The notes beneath the pieces were generated by a model. The model searched no databases. It saw only the letters and a program-made list of their open reading frames with translations, and was not told where the DNA came from. Both the position numbers and the translations under genes were made by a program. Below are positions 4,741 through 15,464 of a stretch of DNA of 41,539 nucleotides, piece by piece; position 1 is the stretch's first letter, and the number at the start of each line of letters is the position of its first letter. This DNA is from Sedimenticola sp. (GTDB taxonomy: Bacteria > Pseudomonadota > Gammaproteobacteria > Chromatiales > Chromatiaceae). The stretch is from positions 1-41,539 of the forward strand of contig JALVEW010000041.1 of the NCBI GenBank assembly GCA_027030425.1. The letters run 5' to 3'.

Positions 4741-6282
4741 ATGCAACTCAATCCCTCCGAAATCAGCGAGCTGATCAAGAGCAGAATCGAAAAGTTCGAT
4801 CTGAAATCCGAAGCTCACAACGAAGGCACGGTTACCGCGGTCACCGACGGTATCGTGCAGATCCATGGACTGGCCGATGTCATGTCCTACGAAATGCTGG
4901 AATTTCCCGGCAACACCTACGGCCTGGCGCTTAACCTGGAGCGCGACACCGTGGGCGCCGTGGTTCTGGGTGACTACAAGCACATCACCGAAGGCGATTC
5001 CGTGAAGTGTACCGGCAAGGTGCTGGAAGTGCCCATCGGCCCAGAGCTGCTGGGCCGGGTGGTGGACACCCTGGGCAATCCCCTGGACGGCAAGGGTCCC
5101 ATCGAAACCAAGCTCACCGCGCCCATGGAGCAGATTGCTCCCGGCGTCATCGCGCGGAAATCCGTGGATCAGCCCGTGCAGACCGGCATCAAGGCCATCG
5201 ACTCCATGGTGCCCATCGGCCGCGGCCAGCGGGAGCTGATCATCGGCGACCGCCAGACCGGCAAGTCCGCCATTGCCATCGACGCCATCATCAACCAGAA
5301 GGGTACCGGCATCAAATGTATCTACGTGGCGGTGGGTCAGAAGAACTCCACCATCGCCCAGCTGGTGCGCAAGCTGGAAGAGCACGGCGCCATGGAGCAT
5401 ACCATCATCGTGGCCGCGCCTGCGGCCGATTCCGCCGCCATGCAGTTCCTGGCGCCCTACGCCGGCTGCACCATGGGTGAGTACTTCCGTGACCGCGGCG
5501 AAGACGCCCTGATCATCTATGACGACCTGACCAAGCAGGCTTGGGCCTATCGCCAGGTATCTCTGCTGCTGCGCCGTCCGCCGGGCCGTGAAGCCTATCC
5601 CGGTGACGTGTTCTACCTGCATTCCCGTCTGCTGGAGCGCGCGGCGCGCATCAATGAAGCAGAAGTGGAGAAGCGCACCAATGGCGAAGTGAAGGGCAAG
5701 ACCGGCTCCCTTACCGCCCTGCCCATCATCGAGACCCAGGCGGGTGACGTGTCTGCCTTCGTGCCGACCAACGTGATTTCCATCACCGACGGTCAGATCT
5801 TCCTGGAGTCCGACCTGTTCAACGCTGGCGTGCGTCCTGCCATCAATGCCGGCCTGTCCGTATCCCGGGTGGGTGGCTCGGCCCAGACCAAGATCATCAA
5901 GAAGCTGGGCGGTGGCGTACGTCTGGCCCTGGCCCAGTACCGGGAATTGGCGGCCTTCTCCCAGTTCGCCTCTGACCTGGACGAGGCCACCCGCAAGCAG
6001 CTGGACCGCGGTCAGCGCGTTACCGAGCTGATGAAGCAGGGACAGTACTCGCCCATGTCCATCGCGGAAATGGCCATTTCCCTGTTTGCCGCCAACGAAG
6101 GCTACCTGGACGACGTGGATGCGGACAAGGTGGTGGATTTCGAAGCCGCCCTGCTGTCCTACATGAACAGCAGCCAAGGCGAGCTCATGGCCAAGGTCAA
6201 CGAGAGCGGCGACTGGAATGACGAGATCGAAAACGCCTTCCACGACGCCCTGAAGGACTTCAAGGCCAACCACAGCTGGTAA
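4741..6282 (+). CDS. atpA: F1Fo ATP synthase subunit alpha
   Basis: Alpha carries the non-catalytic nucleotide sites of the F1 hexamer. The 513-aa length equals the E. coli subunit. The P-loop GDRQTGKS is at residues 169-176. The family signature around [17 protein letters not shown] lies near residue 365, and the C-terminal helical domain is intact. No frameshift or insertion is seen. A very long minus-strand frame overlaps it (see rejected items) and is a codon-bias shadow. Confidence 0.98.
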
Positions 6283-6320
6283 GGCGAGACTCGAGATACA
6301 ACCGGAATCAGGACTGAAAC

Positions 6321-7196
6321 ATGGCAGGCGCTAAAGAGATACGCACCCAGATCGCTTCCATCAAGAGCACGCAGAAGATCACGCGCGCCATGGAAATGGT
6401 TGCCGCAGCCAAGATGCGCAAGGCCCAGGACCGCATGCATGCGTCCCGTCCTTACGCGGAGAAGATGCGCACCGTCATCGGCCATCTGGCCATGGCCCAT
6501 CCTCAGGTGAAGCATCCCTTCATGGAAAAGCGGGAAGTGAAGGCCGTGGGCTATATCATCGTGTCTTCCGACCGCGGCCTGTGCGGTGGCCTGAACAACA
6601 ACCTGTTCCGCCGCTTGGTCAAGGATGTGCAGAAGCTGCACGAAGCCAACATTGACGTGCGCTACTGCCTGGTGGGCAACAAGGCCGTGGCTTTTTTCAG
6701 CCGCGTGGGGGGCGAAGTGCTGGCCCAGGTGACCCAGATCGGCGAATCCGCCCACATGGAAGACCTGGTGGGTACGGTAAAGGTCATGCTGGACGCCTAT
6801 ATGGACGGCAAGGTGGATGAGATTCGCGTGGCCTACAACCGCTTCGTCAACACCATGACTCAGGAACCCGTGGTGGACCGGCTTGCGCCCCTGCCCGAGT
6901 CCGAGGAGGACGAGGAGGAAGTGGCCAAGCTGCGCACCCATTGGGACTATATCTATGAGCCCGACGCGGAAGTGGTGCTGAACGATTTGCTGGCCCGCTA
7001 CGTCGAATCCCTGGCCTATCAGGCCGTGGTGGAGAACGGGGCCTGTGAGCAGTCTGCCCGAATGGTGGCCATGAAAGCGGCCTCGGACAACGCCGGCAGC
7101 CTCATCGACGAACTGGAACTGGTTTACAACAAGGCGCGCCAGGCGGCGATCACTCAGGAGATCTCCGAGATCGTCAGCGGCGCGGCTGCGGTATAA
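6321..7196 (+). CDS. atpG: F1Fo ATP synthase subunit gamma
   Basis: Gamma is the rotating central shaft linking the c-ring to catalysis. The 291-aa protein has the conserved N-terminal coiled-coil segment [20 protein letters not shown]. The internal [15 protein letters not shown] motif and the C-terminal helix [22 protein letters not shown] are also present. Length and position are standard. A GGAATCAGGA ribosome binding region precedes the start. Confidence 0.97.
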
Positions 7197-11315: not shown

Positions 11316-13142
11316 ATGTGTGGAATCGTAGGCGCCATCGCCAGCCGTAATATCACGCCCATTCTCATGGAGGGACTGCGGCGACTGGAGTACCGGGGCT
11401 ATGATTCAGCCGGTATCGCCATTCGTGATGACAGGGGACATTTGCAGCGCATCCGCTCCGTGGGCAAGGTGGCCTCCTTGCAGGAACGGCTGGATGCATC
11501 GCCCATCAGCGGCGAGCTGGGCATTGCCCATACCCGCTGGGCCACCCATGGCATGCCCGCCGAGCGCAACGCTCATCCCCACATGAGCGGGGAGCGGGTG
11601 GCCATCGTGCACAACGGCATCATCGAGAATCATGCGGAGCTGAGGGCTGAGCTGGAGGCTGAGGGCTACCGCTTCGTCTCCGAGACCGATACCGAGGTCA
11701 TCGCTCATCTCCTTGCCCGGGAACTGGACAAGAACGCCGATCTGCCCGAGGCTTTCCGCAAGGTTATATCCCGCCTGGTGGGCGCCTATGCCTTGGCGGC
11801 GTCCAGTCCGGACGACCCGGATCGCATCGTGGTGGCCCGCGCCGGCAGCCCCCTGGTCATAGGCGTGGGGGATGGTGAGCATTTCATTGCCTCGGACGTA
11901 TTCGCCCTGCTGCCCCAGACCCATGATTTCATTTTCCTGGAGGAGGGTGACCTGGCGGAGATCTACCGTGACCAAGTGAAGATTTTCGACCAGGATGGCA
12001 ATGCCGTGGAGCGGCCGGTTAAGTCCTCCCGGCTCAACGCGGCGGCTGCAGACAAGGGGCCGTACCAGCATTACATGCTCAAGGAAATCTTTGAGCAGCC
12101 CGGCGTGGTGGCCGAGACTCTGGAAGGGCGTATCTACAAGGGGCGGCTGCTGGAGGAAAGCTTCGGCTATGAAACCCGTGAGCTGCTGAACCGCACCCGG
12201 CAGATTCACATCATCGCCTGCGGCACCAGCTATCACGCGGGCCTGGTGGCCCGTTACTGGTTCGAGGACATAGGCATTCCCTGCATGGTGGAAGTGGCCA
12301 GCGAGTACCGCTACCGCCACGCCGTGGTGCCCGAAGGCACTCTGTTCGTCACCATTTCCCAGTCTGGCGAAACTGCCGATACCCTGGCCGCCCTGCGCGG
12401 CGCGAAAGACAAGGGATATCTGGGCAGTCTGGTGGTGTGCAATGTTCCGGAAAGCTCCCTGGTGCGCGAATCAGACGTGGCCCTCATGACCCGCGCCGGC
12501 ACCGAAATCGGCGTGGCCTCCACCAAGGCCTTTACCACCCAGCTGGTGGCCCTGCGCCTGCTGGTGCTGGCCATGGCCAAGCGCATGGGGCACAGCGAGG
12601 AAGCCCTGCGTGGCTACATTGACGAACTCCATTCCCTGCCCCGGCAGATGGAGGTGGCCCTGAAGCTGAATGAATCCATACAGCAGATGGCCCGGTCCTT
12701 TGCGGACAAGGAGCACGCCCTGTTCCTGGGTCGCGGTCCCTTCTATCCCATTGCCCTGGAAGGGGCGCTCAAGCTCAAGGAGATCTCCTACGTCCATGCC
12801 GAGGCCTATCCCGCGGGCGAACTCAAGCACGGTCCTCTGGCCCTGGTGGATGACAAGATGCCCGTGGTCTGCGCCCTGCCCAATGACCCCCTTCTGGACA
12901 AGGTGCTTTCCAACCTCCAGGAAGTCCGCGCCCGGGGCGGCGAGCTGTTCCTGTTCAGCGACCAGGAAGTGAAGATCGAGCTGGACAAATACCAGAGCCT
13001 GACCCTGTCCGACATCCACCCCAGCACCTCGCCCATCGTCTATACAGTGCCCCTGCAGCTGCTGGCCTACCACGTGGCCCTCATCAAGGGGACGGACGTG
13101 GATCAGCCGAGGAACCTGGCGAAATCCGTTACGGTGGAATAG
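11316..13142 (+). CDS. glmS: GlmS: glutamine-fructose-6-phosphate aminotransferase
   Basis: GlmS converts fructose-6-phosphate and glutamine to glucosamine-6-phosphate, the first committed step toward UDP-GlcNAc. The 608-aa protein begins MCGIVGAIA, exposing the catalytic Cys2 of the Ntn-type glutaminase. Two SIS sugar-isomerase domains follow (SGETADTLAALRGAKDKG; LGRGPFYPIALEGALKLKE). It ends in the conserved KSVTVE. The ribosome binding site lies in the glmU tail (GGGGG, 6 bases before the ATG), so the pair is translationally close. I saw no glmS ribozyme-like sequence, as expected for a gammaproteobacterium. Confidence 0.97.
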   Translation: MCGIVGAIASRNITPILMEGLRRLEYRGYDSAGIAIRDDRGHLQRIRSVGKVASLQERLDASPISGELGIAHTRWATHGMPAERNAHPHMSGERVAIVHNGIIENHAELRAELEAEGYRFVSETDTEVIAHLLARELDKNADLPEAFRKVISRLVGAYALAASSPDDPDRIVVARAGSPLVIGVGDGEHFIASDVFALLPQTHDFIFLEEGDLAEIYRDQVKIFDQDGNAVERPVKSSRLNAAAADKGPYQHYMLKEIFEQPGVVAETLEGRIYKGRLLEESFGYETRELLNRTRQIHIIACGTSYHAGLVARYWFEDIGIPCMVEVASEYRYRHAVVPEGTLFVTISQSGETADTLAALRGAKDKGYLGSLVVCNVPESSLVRESDVALMTRAGTEIGVASTKAFTTQLVALRLLVLAMAKRMGHSEEALRGYIDELHSLPRQMEVALKLNESIQQMARSFADKEHALFLGRGPFYPIALEGALKLKEISYVHAEAYPAGELKHGPLALVDDKMPVVCALPNDPLLDKVLSNLQEVRARGGELFLFSDQEVKIELDKYQSLTLSDIHPSTSPIVYTVPLQLLAYHVALIKGTDVDQPRNLAKSVTVE

Positions 13143-13265: not shown

Positions 13266-13298
13266 CGGGGTGTCGATGAACAGCGTTCTAACACCCCG
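13266..13298. other. Inverted repeat overlapping the end of the HPF-sigma gene
   Basis: CGGGGTGT (13266-13273) and ACACCCCG (13291-13298) are exact inverted repeats separated by 17 bases that contain the TAG stop of the minus-strand gene. No U-tract follows on the minus strand. It could mark the 3' end of that transcript. Confidence 0.3.
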
Positions 13299-14412
13299 TC
13301 GTGGGCATGATCTTTTCCAGAATCTCGGCCTCAAGCTCCTCCGGCAGGGGTTCCCGCAAGGGTGATCCCAACAATTCTCCGGTGCTTGCCTGATCCAGCT
13401 CACCCCTTGTCAGACGCTGACCCAGCCAGTCGCGCATGAAAGCCTCGGCGCAGGCTCGGGTTTGCTGCAGACGTTCGGGCGTCTGATGGAGGATGTCCGC
13501 CAGCTCGGATTCTTTCATGCCATGCACGTCCGCCAGCACCAGGGCATGTCTCCATGCGGGAGGCAGGAGGGCCAGCGTTCGATGAACCAGAATGGCGCGT
13601 TCCCGAATGGCCTCCGCCTGTTCCGGGTTGCTGCTTTCCGGGTCAGGGATGATGTCTTCCATGCGGATGACCTCATCCGGCTGGTAGAACTCATACATGC
13701 GGGTATCTTCGTCGTCGCTGATGTCCATGGCGTCTGCCGGTGCGAAATCTTCCGTGGACACCCGGCGGTCGCGAACCTGGCGGGCGTCCATTTCTTCCTG
13801 AATGACCTGCAAAGCCATTCCTGCCAGCCAGGGCAGGATTTCCAGGTGTTGGGGCCTCTCACCAAAGGCTTCCAGCCCGCGGACAACGGCTGCATCCAGC
13901 ACTTCGTCTGCGCGAATGTCCGAGGGCGACAGATCTCCCAGGGCCTGGTGGTAGGCGAGTTCCCGTCGGATGAAATGATAGAGTTCGGGCAGGTGAGGCT
14001 TCACCAGGTCGGCGTAGTCCTTTTGCTGCTCCCTGTCACTGCCGGTGCTCCCGCTGAGCTGATTGCGCAGTTGTGCGCGGCGTCTTGGGCGTTTCCACAA
14101 ATGGTCGTTTCTTGCCAGGTGCTTGAAGCGCTCGACCTGGCGGCGCAGCTCCGCGAAAGCTTGCCGAACCACGGCATTGCCGTCGTCGGCCTCTTCCAGG
14201 GCCACCAGGGTTTTTCCCGGCAGATGCAGTTTCAGCCGTGCCCTGTACAGGGATTTGTTTCCATGTCGTTCCACCGCGCCTTCCAGGCGTACGGCGTCGC
14301 CGTCAAAACTGCCCAATACTTCTCTAAGGCTATCGCTGCTCTCCTTGACGGTGTTTTTGAGCAGTTTCTTCTCGTTGTTGTCGATTCTTCTGTATGAAAA
14401 CCGGATATTCAT
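13288..14412 (-). CDS. HPF/RaiA-like domain fused to a sigma-70-like module
   Basis: The 374-aa protein joins two normally separate functions. Residues 1-105 resemble ribosome hibernation factors of the HPF/RaiA family: MNIRFSYRRI start, YRARLKLHLPGKTLVALEE, then FAELRRQVERFKHL. A basic linker (WKRPRRRAQLR) follows. Residues 137-212 look like sigma-70 region 2 (ELYHFIRRELAYHQALGDL, EILPWLAGMALQVIQEEM), an acidic stretch spans 220-260, and residues 276-330 look like region 4 with a helix-turn-helix (LALLPPAWRHALVLADVHG, ESELADILHQTPERL). The ATG at 14412 has GGAG 6 bases upstream; the frame is open to 14469. The gene stands alone, divergent from an HDOD regulator. The domain calls are by eye. 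A stress regulator linking ribosome state to transcription is inference, and a degenerate sigma module is possible. Confidence 0.8.
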   Translation of the reverse strand: MNIRFSYRRIDNNEKKLLKNTVKESSDSLREVLGSFDGDAVRLEGAVERHGNKSLYRARLKLHLPGKTLVALEEADDGNAVVRQAFAELRRQVERFKHLARNDHLWKRPRRRAQLRNQLSGSTGSDREQQKDYADLVKPHLPELYHFIRRELAYHQALGDLSPSDIRADEVLDAAVVRGLEAFGERPQHLEILPWLAGMALQVIQEEMDARQVRDRRVSTEDFAPADAMDISDDEDTRMYEFYQPDEVIRMEDIIPDPESSNPEQAEAIRERAILVHRTLALLPPAWRHALVLADVHGMKESELADILHQTPERLQQTRACAEAFMRDWLGQRLTRGELDQASTGELLGSPLREPLPEELEAEILEKIMPTTGC

Positions 14413-14468
14413 TTTGTGCTCCAAAATCGTGGATGCAATGGATATGAGGTTTCCAGCCGCCCAATTCA

Positions 14469-14484
14469 AGCACCGGGCAGGCCA
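14469..14484 (-). promoter_or_regulatory. Possible sigma-54 (-24/-12) promoter for the HPF-sigma gene
   Basis: On the minus strand TGGCCTGCCCGGTGCT matches 9 of the 12 defined positions of the sigma-54 consensus (TGGCACG-N4-TTGCW). The invariant GG and GC are correctly spaced. It would start transcription about 45 bases before the ATG at 14412. A chance match cannot be excluded. Confidence 0.3.
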
Positions 14485-14594: not shown

Positions 14595-15464
14595 ATGCTG
14601 CAGAATATGAATACGCCTACGGGCAATGTTGCGCTGGATTTTCTGAAGGACCTGGCCGCTCAGTTGAGCAGCCGGGATATCGAGCTGCCGCCGTTTCCGG
14701 ACGTGTATACACGAATACTGGGCGCGCTGAATGACCCGGACCTGTCCATGGACCGGCTGGCCAGAATGGTAACGGCGGCGCCGGATCTGTGCGTACGCAT
14801 CCTGTTGCTGGCGAATTCGGCCCTGTACAACCGTGCCGGGGTGGAGGTGGTAGACATTGGCGTGGCCGTGTCTCGCTTGGGTGTCAGTGCTGTCCGCAAT
14901 GCCACAGTATCCGTTGCCACCCGGGAAATGTTCGATTGTCCGCGTAGTTCCCCCATCTGGGAGAAACTGGAGCAGCTGCGCTCGGCCTCCGTGCACACCG
15001 CGGCTTATACCTGTGCTCTTGCCGATTATGCCGGTATGCCGGATGCCCGGGATGATGCCATGCTCACCGGCCTGCTGCACAATGTGGGGCATTTTTACAT
15101 TCTTACCAAGTCACGTCAGTTTCCGGAGTTCGTTGAGGAAATGTCCATAGAACAATGGATGCCTGGCGTGGGCTGCGCACTCATTGAGAACTGGGGCTTC
15201 CCGGAACAGATTGCCAGGGCCGTGGAGCTGCAGAACGACCCGGATGTGTCGCATTTTGGCCCGGCGAACCTTGCGGATATCCTCAAGGCCGCAAAACTGA
15301 TGGTTCGCATGGCCGACTCCGGGGATCCCGAAGCCGTCGTAAGTGAAATTGACTGGCAGCATTCCCCGGATCTCAAGAAGCTGGATATCCGTCAGGACAA
15401 TGTTCTGGACGTCTATAACGGCTTCTCGGATGAAGTACAGTTGTTTACGTCAGTGCTGAAGTAG
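14595..15464 (+). CDS. HDOD-domain signalling protein
   Basis: HDOD proteins are regulatory relatives of HD phosphohydrolases and commonly act in c-di-GMP, motility or stress circuits. The 289-aa product is almost entirely one HDOD domain: an N-terminal segment LPPFPDVYTRILGALNDPDLSMDRL, then APDLCVRILLLANSALYN, then the degenerate HD region MLTGLLHNVGHFYILTKS. No GGDEF, EAL or receiver domain is fused to it. The ATG at 14595 is preferred because GGGGG lies 5 bases upstream. The frame also offers an ATG at 14550 and a TTG at 14517. It is divergent from the HPF-sigma gene and convergent with mscL. Confidence 0.85.
   Translation: MLQNMNTPTGNVALDFLKDLAAQLSSRDIELPPFPDVYTRILGALNDPDLSMDRLARMVTAAPDLCVRILLLANSALYNRAGVEVVDIGVAVSRLGVSAVRNATVSVATREMFDCPRSSPIWEKLEQLRSASVHTAAYTCALADYAGMPDARDDAMLTGLLHNVGHFYILTKSRQFPEFVEEMSIEQWMPGVGCALIENWGFPEQIARAVELQNDPDVSHFGPANLADILKAAKLMVRMADSGDPEAVVSEIDWQHSPDLKKLDIRQDNVLDVYNGFSDEVQLFTSVLK

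Follow-up and report, generated by a model that had tools for sequence, protein, structure and literature searches.

A single gene of Sedimenticola sp. encodes, in one chain, a ribosome-hibernation domain of the HPF/RaiA type and a module with the fold of the sigma2-sigma4 part of ECF sigma factors, and this fusion is firmly established as real. The gene lies in a window of 41,539 nucleotides, the whole stretch of DNA that was analysed, and belongs to a family in which the sigma-like half keeps its fold but seems, judging from its residues, unable to read promoters as ECF sigma factors do. The copy in the window falls in a mostly stand-alone clade, while the other members of known context, orf11 of the tLST islands included, stand beside heat- or oxidative-stress genes. 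It is tentatively proposed, with confidence a little short of even, that the protein is a stress-associated, ribosome-docked sigma mimic that may restrain or park core RNA polymerase, or else a sigma regulator; the sigma half itself likely works by protein contact.

The first-pass annotation had placed one 374-aa protein at 13288-14412, which is correct, the gene lying on the minus strand: its frame opens with an ATG at 14412 and closes with a stop at 13290-13288, and stops interrupt the same frame on the plus strand (Table 1). An in-frame TTG upstream, at 14469, is a possible alternative start, less likely than the ATG. The gene is flanked on one side by glmS (plus strand, 11316-13142) and on the other by a divergent HDOD-domain gene (14595-15461); no operon partner was found among the genes nearby, which are those for GlmS, the HDOD protein, MscL and a solute-binding protein, and no stress gene was found within 10 kb of this chromosomal copy. 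Searches of the locus for a promoter, for a heat-shock promoter pattern and against Rfam found nothing, the fusion had no match among phages or viral contigs, and none of the defence-system models matched the window. The host genome (2.84 Mb, 99.5% complete) is one of nine among 15 same-genus genomes that carry the full fusion, which rules out a chimeric assembly or other assembly artefact, and public Sedimenticola sp. records hold three copies at 72-87% identity. Since dN lies below dS in all 27 segment-by-pair comparisons for which dS could be estimated (30 in total, three saturated), the frame is under purifying selection, ruling out a chance ORF.

Table 1. Features of the fusion gene, by position in the window.
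Feature	Position	Strand	Evidence
Whole gene, 374 aa, S30AE/HPF domain fused to ECF-like sigma2-sigma4 module	13288..14412	minus	Pfam, NCBIfam, hhalign, genus survey
GGAG, ribosome-binding-site-like, 6 nt before ATG	14419..14422	minus	sequence
HPF/RaiA (S30AE) domain, residues 1-105; predicted beta-alpha-beta-beta-beta-alpha (low confidence)	14098..14412	minus	profiles, model
Basic end of last HPF helix and linker, residues 95-118 (includes WKRPRRRAQLR); median net charge +8 (29 proteins)	14059..14130	minus	family alignment
Sigma2-like module, residues 130-216; Asp173 replaces region 2.2 Gln, region 2.4 Asn absent (202)	13765..14025	minus	profiles, model
Acidic sigma2-sigma4 linker, residues 217-260; median net charge -13	13633..13764	minus	family alignment, dN
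Signature motif EFYQPDEVIRMEDII, residues 241-255; motif core also in HPF-less relatives	13648..13692	minus	family alignment
Sigma4-like helix-turn-helix module, residues 261-333	13414..13632	minus	profiles, model
Former recognition helix, residues 311-333; Thr318, Cys321, Glu323 at three ECF arginine positions	13414..13482	minus	profile-profile alignment
C-terminal tail, residues 334-374; conservation limited to close relatives	13291..13413	minus	alignment

Residues 1-105 had been read by eye as an HPF/RaiA-like domain, and profile searches bear this out at family level, the window protein alone being borderline. With the Pfam S30AE model it narrowly misses the cut-off (22.8 bits versus 23.7), and in a six-frame search of the genome the gene reaches 25.6 bits, just above it; six of the eight fused relatives scanned pass the cut-off, and tLST orf11 has no match. 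An hhalign comparison of the 29-protein family with eight S30AE proteins (L015, L042 and L046 were dropped from this reference set) gave E 1.8e-13 over residues 1-113, a value biased upwards because every reference protein except the host HPF came from searches with family queries; the Pfam results are independent of that set. In the hhalign controls, the reversed alignment and 20 column-shuffled alignments never rose above a probability of 0.5 of 100, and each half of the family scored 98.4 and 98.9 against its own reference versus 1.0 and 0.2 against the reference of the other half.

Modelled alone, the HPF half adopts the beta-alpha-beta-beta-beta-alpha topology of HPF at low confidence (mean pLDDT 55). 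The best Foldseek rows for this model include protein Y/HPF at E 0.04-0.2, no row reaching E 0.001, and in VIA the match to RaiA scores Z 6.8, a value that proteins other than HPF approach as well. In the full-length AlphaFold model, built with four sequences (mean pLDDT 55.9), the HPF part is all-helical at pLDDT below 50, for which reason that model was used for the sigma half alone. The likeness to HPF/RaiA/YfiA (PF02482) comprises homology by profile, a low-confidence prediction of the same topology and a basic last helix, while the window protein differs in adding a sigma-like half of 250 residues and in losing, at several sites (residues 31, 40, 73, 105), basic positions common to the eight reference proteins. 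The host, moreover, encodes a separate canonical short HPF. No dimerisation domain of the kind found at the C terminus of long HPFs is among the Pfam matches listed for the window protein, where filtering removes most matches above E 0.1; its C-terminal half is sigma-like instead.

The region 2-like and region 4 segments proposed by the first-pass annotation are likewise confirmed. Alone, the window protein scores below the Pfam cut-offs for Sigma70_r4_2 (19.8 bits versus 25.7) and PhyR_sigma-like (18.7 versus 27), and Sigma70_r2 appears neither among the matches listed for it nor, at this locus, among the six Sigma70_r2 matches of the host genome. The NCBIfam sigma70-ECF model matches residues 133-324 at E 7e-11, with 42.0 bits versus a cut-off of 42.9, and the gene just passes in the six-frame search (43.1 bits); two of the eight fused relatives scanned (L073 and L074) pass the Sigma70_r4_2 cut-off. 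Comparison by hhalign of the family with 20 ECF sigma factors, encoded by the host and by related genomes, gave E 3e-16 over residues 130-333. This reference set was drawn from Pfam and NCBIfam searches and holds 20 of the 21 loci tried, L131 being left out; the 29-row family set omits L087, which is cut by a contig end, and the later finds L136-L139 and L142-L148, and alignment A2 has 23 rows.

In the AlphaFold model the sigma half reaches pLDDT 70-80 over residues 131-210 and 67-78 over 261-340. It superposes on the Bartonella sigma factor bound to NepR (5uxx), presumably of the EcfG type, with Z 14.6 and rmsd 2.9 over 160 of 163 residues, and on PhyR-NepR (2lfw) with Z 10.0, a level that unrelated helical proteins can reach; the sigma2-sigma4 arrangement matches that of anti-sigma-bound ECFs. 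It had been allowed at the outset that a fold unlike sigma, or the absence of contact residues from all homologs, would leave an HPF with an unrelated helical tail. No such tail was found, the fold being sigma-like, whereas the promoter-reading residues are indeed absent or nearly so in the 29 proteins.

These residues were counted on a profile-profile alignment of the 29 family proteins with the 20 ECFs, at positions which are taken, from general knowledge of sigma factors, to be promoter or core contacts. The Gln of region 2.2, a core-binding position in sigma factors, is present in 18 of 20 ECFs and in none of the family, where Asp stands in 29 of 29; the acidic position of the same region is retained in 28. 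The Asn of region 2.4 is found in 14 of 20 ECFs versus 0 of 29 family proteins. Arg or Lys occupies three recognition-helix positions in 17, 18 and 18 of the ECFs versus 1, 3 and 2 of the family, 19 of whose 29 members carry an acid at the last of these arginine positions. The window protein itself has Asp173, Gln202, Thr318, Cys321 and Glu323 at these sites. The net charge of the recognition helix has a median of -1 in the family and +4 in the ECFs, the window protein standing at +1, with -1 for its sigma4; across the family, median net charges are +5 for the HPF domain, +8 for linker 95-118, -6 for sigma2, -13 for the sigma2-sigma4 linker and -5 for sigma4. Other sigma positions are kept, namely the Pro (28/29) and Arg (29/29) of region 4.1 and a Trp of sigma2 (20/29).

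Because the promoter-reading residues are lost across the family, a working sigma factor was set aside as first choice, and the NCBI annotation of several plasmid relatives as sigma-70 factors or FliA is probably misleading. Core binding may be lost too, since the region 2.2 Gln is replaced in all 29 proteins. The first-pass annotation had suggested that the chain could relay ribosome idling to transcription, or titrate polymerase in stationary phase. Given these losses, redirection at the promoter level is not favoured; a relay by a sigma mimic acting through protein contact may still occur, and titration of polymerase is compatible with such a mimic.

The sigma2-sigma4 linker of the family is an insertion with no aligned counterpart in ECFs, and it carries a strongly conserved motif, E-[FY]-[YW]-Q-P-D-E followed by four residues and E-D (EFYQPDExxxxED). 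In five same-genus pairs its dN was 0.043-0.049, the lowest of six segments in four of the five; in the closest pair the dN of the HPF domain was below that of the linker. An HPF-less protein of 212 aa in genome G487 retains the motif. Since HPF-less relatives keep it, the main partner of the linker is probably not the HPF half, and the existence of such relatives implies that docking on ribosomes is not required for the sigma-like half to function. The equivalent linker of sigma factors lies in the RNA polymerase channel, on which ground core RNA polymerase is provisionally placed first among the candidate partners.

HPF-less relatives with the QPDE linker occur at L140 5971-6642 (an Azospirillum plasmid), at L141 ~5962-6600 (a Phenylobacterium plasmid, with an internal stop in the frame) and at L139 1462-2097. 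The Azospirillum and Phenylobacterium genes directly follow a DUF5335 gene, amid Hsp20, Lon, DnaJ or DegQ genes, and the HPF-less QPDE module is possibly a second module of stress islands. In a further copy, L138 (G677) 1477-2226, both the HPF part and the first portion of sigma2 are missing, and the frame opens within unrelated sequence near a contig end.

These relatives bear on the alternative that survives best, although it is unlikely: the sigma-like half would serve the ribosome alone, as an acidic helical module controlling the HPF domain through autoinhibition, dimerisation or shielding of a site, with no link to transcription. The loss of promoter-reading chemistry, including the changed Gln of region 2.2, agrees with it, long HPFs do use an added C-terminal domain, and the fused form may have a specialised role, given that the host encodes a short HPF as well. 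Against this, the HPF-less relatives have retained precisely the sigma-like half together with the QPDE linker, and the modelled sigma2 and sigma4 are arranged as in anti-sigma-bound ECFs.

The first-pass annotation had also proposed a phylogenetic survey of the architecture, and it was recovered beyond the genus. The genome surveys were made in Pseudomonadota with at most five candidates scored per genome, so that the counts are lower bounds. Among 369 genomes of the class, at least 36 match at E 1e-6, at least 16 of which hold the fusion at E < 1e-50 (in 17 places, one of them truncated at the edge of its contig), the remainder matching one half only. In a phylum sample of 398 genomes, at least four besides the host match at E 1e-15, comprising two full fusions, one HPF-lacking copy near a contig end and one HPF-less protein. 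A search of plasmids matched 300 of 72,556 records, 268 of them over at least 80% of the query, and the family is found on plasmids of alpha-, beta- and gammaproteobacteria.

Stress genes (Hsp20, FtsH, YfdX, PsiE, Trx, KefB or DnaK) adjoin 8 of the 17 class loci versus 1 of 78 background loci, the latter being shorter and centred on sigma or S30AE genes; two of the eight rest on one gene each (Trx at L078, FtsH at L079). Among the other class loci, five, the window included, have room on the contig and no stress gene, and four lie on contigs shorter than 5 kb. The island stretches examined in Alphaproteobacteria carry, in order, Hsp20 genes, FtsH, an AAA ATPase and the fusion, with HdeD nearby, and those examined in Burkholderiales carry Hsp20 genes, the fusion, GroES, GroEL and DnaK. 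In a midpoint-rooted tree of the 29 members, those marked as stand-alone cluster in a single group of 13 rows (support 98/95), 12 of which have no stress gene near them, while all 13 members of known context outside it lie beside stress genes, three more being without context data. The exception in the stand-alone group is the same-genus copy of G010, where an FtsH-type protease gene (L152 1958-3856), 52% identical to the FtsH of a Shinella island, lies 167 bp downstream of the fusion.

A transporter-like gene comes after this FtsH-type gene in G010. In genome G097 a CRISPR-like array (L073 6-2015; 28 repeats at a spacing of ~73 bp) lies ~2.7 kb from the fusion gene. At L074 11313-11966 a gene that looks thioredoxin-like by eye directly follows a stand-alone fusion, echoing the trx that follows tLST orf11; a comparison with the island Trx gave no match for it at E 1e-6.

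By sequence, tLST orf11 is a full-length member of the family, a link that goes beyond the single-sequence reading of the first pass. A model built without any orf11 found six orf11 proteins by hmmsearch, with E-values from 4e-83 to 5e-79 and matches covering residues 1-350. Alone, orf11 has no Pfam or NCBIfam match, and an orf11-only alignment matches the HPF and ECF profiles weakly (hhalign probability 4.7 and 17.7), so that its two domains are assigned through the family. It differs from the window copy, which is chromosomal and lies between glmS and the HDOD gene, in being island-borne, in its identity of ~27-30% and in its place, mostly between hdeD-GI and trx-GI. In Aeromonas, E. coli, Klebsiella and Acinetobacter the records label it 'hypothetical protein' and place it behind hdeD-GI, and trx-GI comes next in five of the six, the sixth (Acinetobacter) not listing trx there; the available text of PMC7685784 calls the same gene, in Pseudomonas aeruginosa numbering, 'ORF10, hypothetical protein'. 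A near search matched orf11 in 152 of 5,426 complete E. coli genomes, 144 of them over at least 80% of the gene.

Published experiments touch on orf11 at several points. In E. coli MG1655 lacZ::LHR, according to the accessible part of PMC8407380, deletion of 7 of 13 genes reduced resistance to heat or chlorine; orf11 is not one of the seven, and its deletion left lipid oxidation unchanged. The proteomic study PMC7010813, in its available text, detected eleven LHR proteins, 'a hypothetical protein' among them, and orf15 is given as not detected in that of PMC8290217; by elimination alone, the hypothetical protein may be orf11. The deletion result weighs against a major contribution of orf11 in those assays. 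It may not speak for the family, since orf11 is somewhat less constrained than the neighbouring island genes: in the one record pair in which neighbours were compared, its pN/pS was 0.50 versus 0.05, 0.10, 0.19, 0.35 and 0.44 for five of them. Five of the six orf11 records entered this analysis, and the other pairs gave 0.53 to 2.1 with few changes, the high ratios resting on 1 to 3 synonymous changes. In L144, L145 and L147 (orf11 of E. coli and Klebsiella tLST), changes fall inside the otherwise near-invariant linker motif. The family nevertheless provides a domain-level lead for orf11, to which the available text of the tLST papers assigns no function.

The sigma half resembles the sigma mimic of PhyR, the alphaproteobacterial anti-anti-sigma factor, more than it does a working sigma factor, both having an ECF-like sigma2-sigma4 part that keeps the fold and not the promoter-reading residues; the accessible text of PMC8103513 describes PhyR as correct in its ECF structure, its promoter and core regions having degenerated. 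This likeness suggests a PhyR-type partner switch, in which the mimic would sequester an anti-sigma factor and so free a real stress sigma factor when ribosomes idle, and the sub-threshold matches to PhyR_sigma-like (the window protein and three of nine relatives scanned) and PhyR_sigma2 (one relative), together with the fold matches to 5uxx and, less tellingly, 2lfw, point the same way. Such a switch is nonetheless decidedly unlikely. NepR is absent from all 19 genomes searched, with a positive Caulobacter control, on which ground a NepR decoy was rejected; the window protein has an HPF domain in place of the receiver domain; no anti-sigma gene is annotated in the island stretches examined, where the plasmid gene tables are incomplete; and the family occurs in three classes, which makes a partner restricted to one lineage less plausible. 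A further difference from PhyR is the conserved acidic QPDE linker of the family.

ECFs with extra domains act at promoters, unlike the fusion family as it is read here. That the protein is an active ECF sigma factor which recognises unusual promoters and whose activity the ribosome gates by way of the N-terminal domain is very unlikely, because the recognition-helix and -10 residues are lost in practically all members, the last arginine site is mostly acidic and sigma4 and the linker are net negative in the family median, even though the sigma70-ECF match spans both sigma regions, the L073 and L074 relatives pass the region 4 cut-off, several plasmid relatives are publicly annotated as sigma factors and ECFs with N-terminal extensions are known (PMC8103513, in its available text). 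The combination of sigma2-sigma4 with an additional domain in one chain is likewise described in the accessible parts of PMC8999054 and PMC8103513, in which the words ribosome and hibernation do not occur. Among the titles and abstract openings listed for open-licence PMC papers, none describes an HPF-sigma fusion or gives tLST orf11 a function, which is not proof of absence.

The preferred reading, a ribosome-docked sigma mimic, may be set out as follows. The N-terminal HPF domain and the basic linker would anchor the protein to the 30S subunit of idle ribosomes; the C-terminal half, with its ECF-type sigma2-sigma4 fold and its acidic, highly constrained linker, would serve as a sigma mimic that does not read promoters. 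Tethered to hibernating ribosomes, this mimic would most likely act through protein contacts, with core RNA polymerase or a sigma regulator as the partner it occupies, so that transcription could be lowered or kept poised when translation ceases. A partner common to all hosts, such as the ribosome or core RNA polymerase, is favoured over a lineage-specific anti-sigma factor because the family spans plasmids of three proteobacterial classes and NepR is absent. In its boldest form, which is somewhat unlikely, a single chain on hibernating ribosomes would hold core RNA polymerase inactive beside them through the acidic-linker mimic, and translation arrest would directly impose transcription arrest in heat or oxidative shock, by a device carried partly on mobile islands.

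The relatives of the Sedimenticola protein include a gene of the mobile heat-resistance island found in certain E. coli and Klebsiella. Should the mimic engage core RNA polymerase with the HPF domain seated on the ribosome, the family would provide a direct, stress-triggered link between hibernation and transcription; even otherwise, it is, like PhyR, a natural example of a sigma fold put to a use other than reading promoters.
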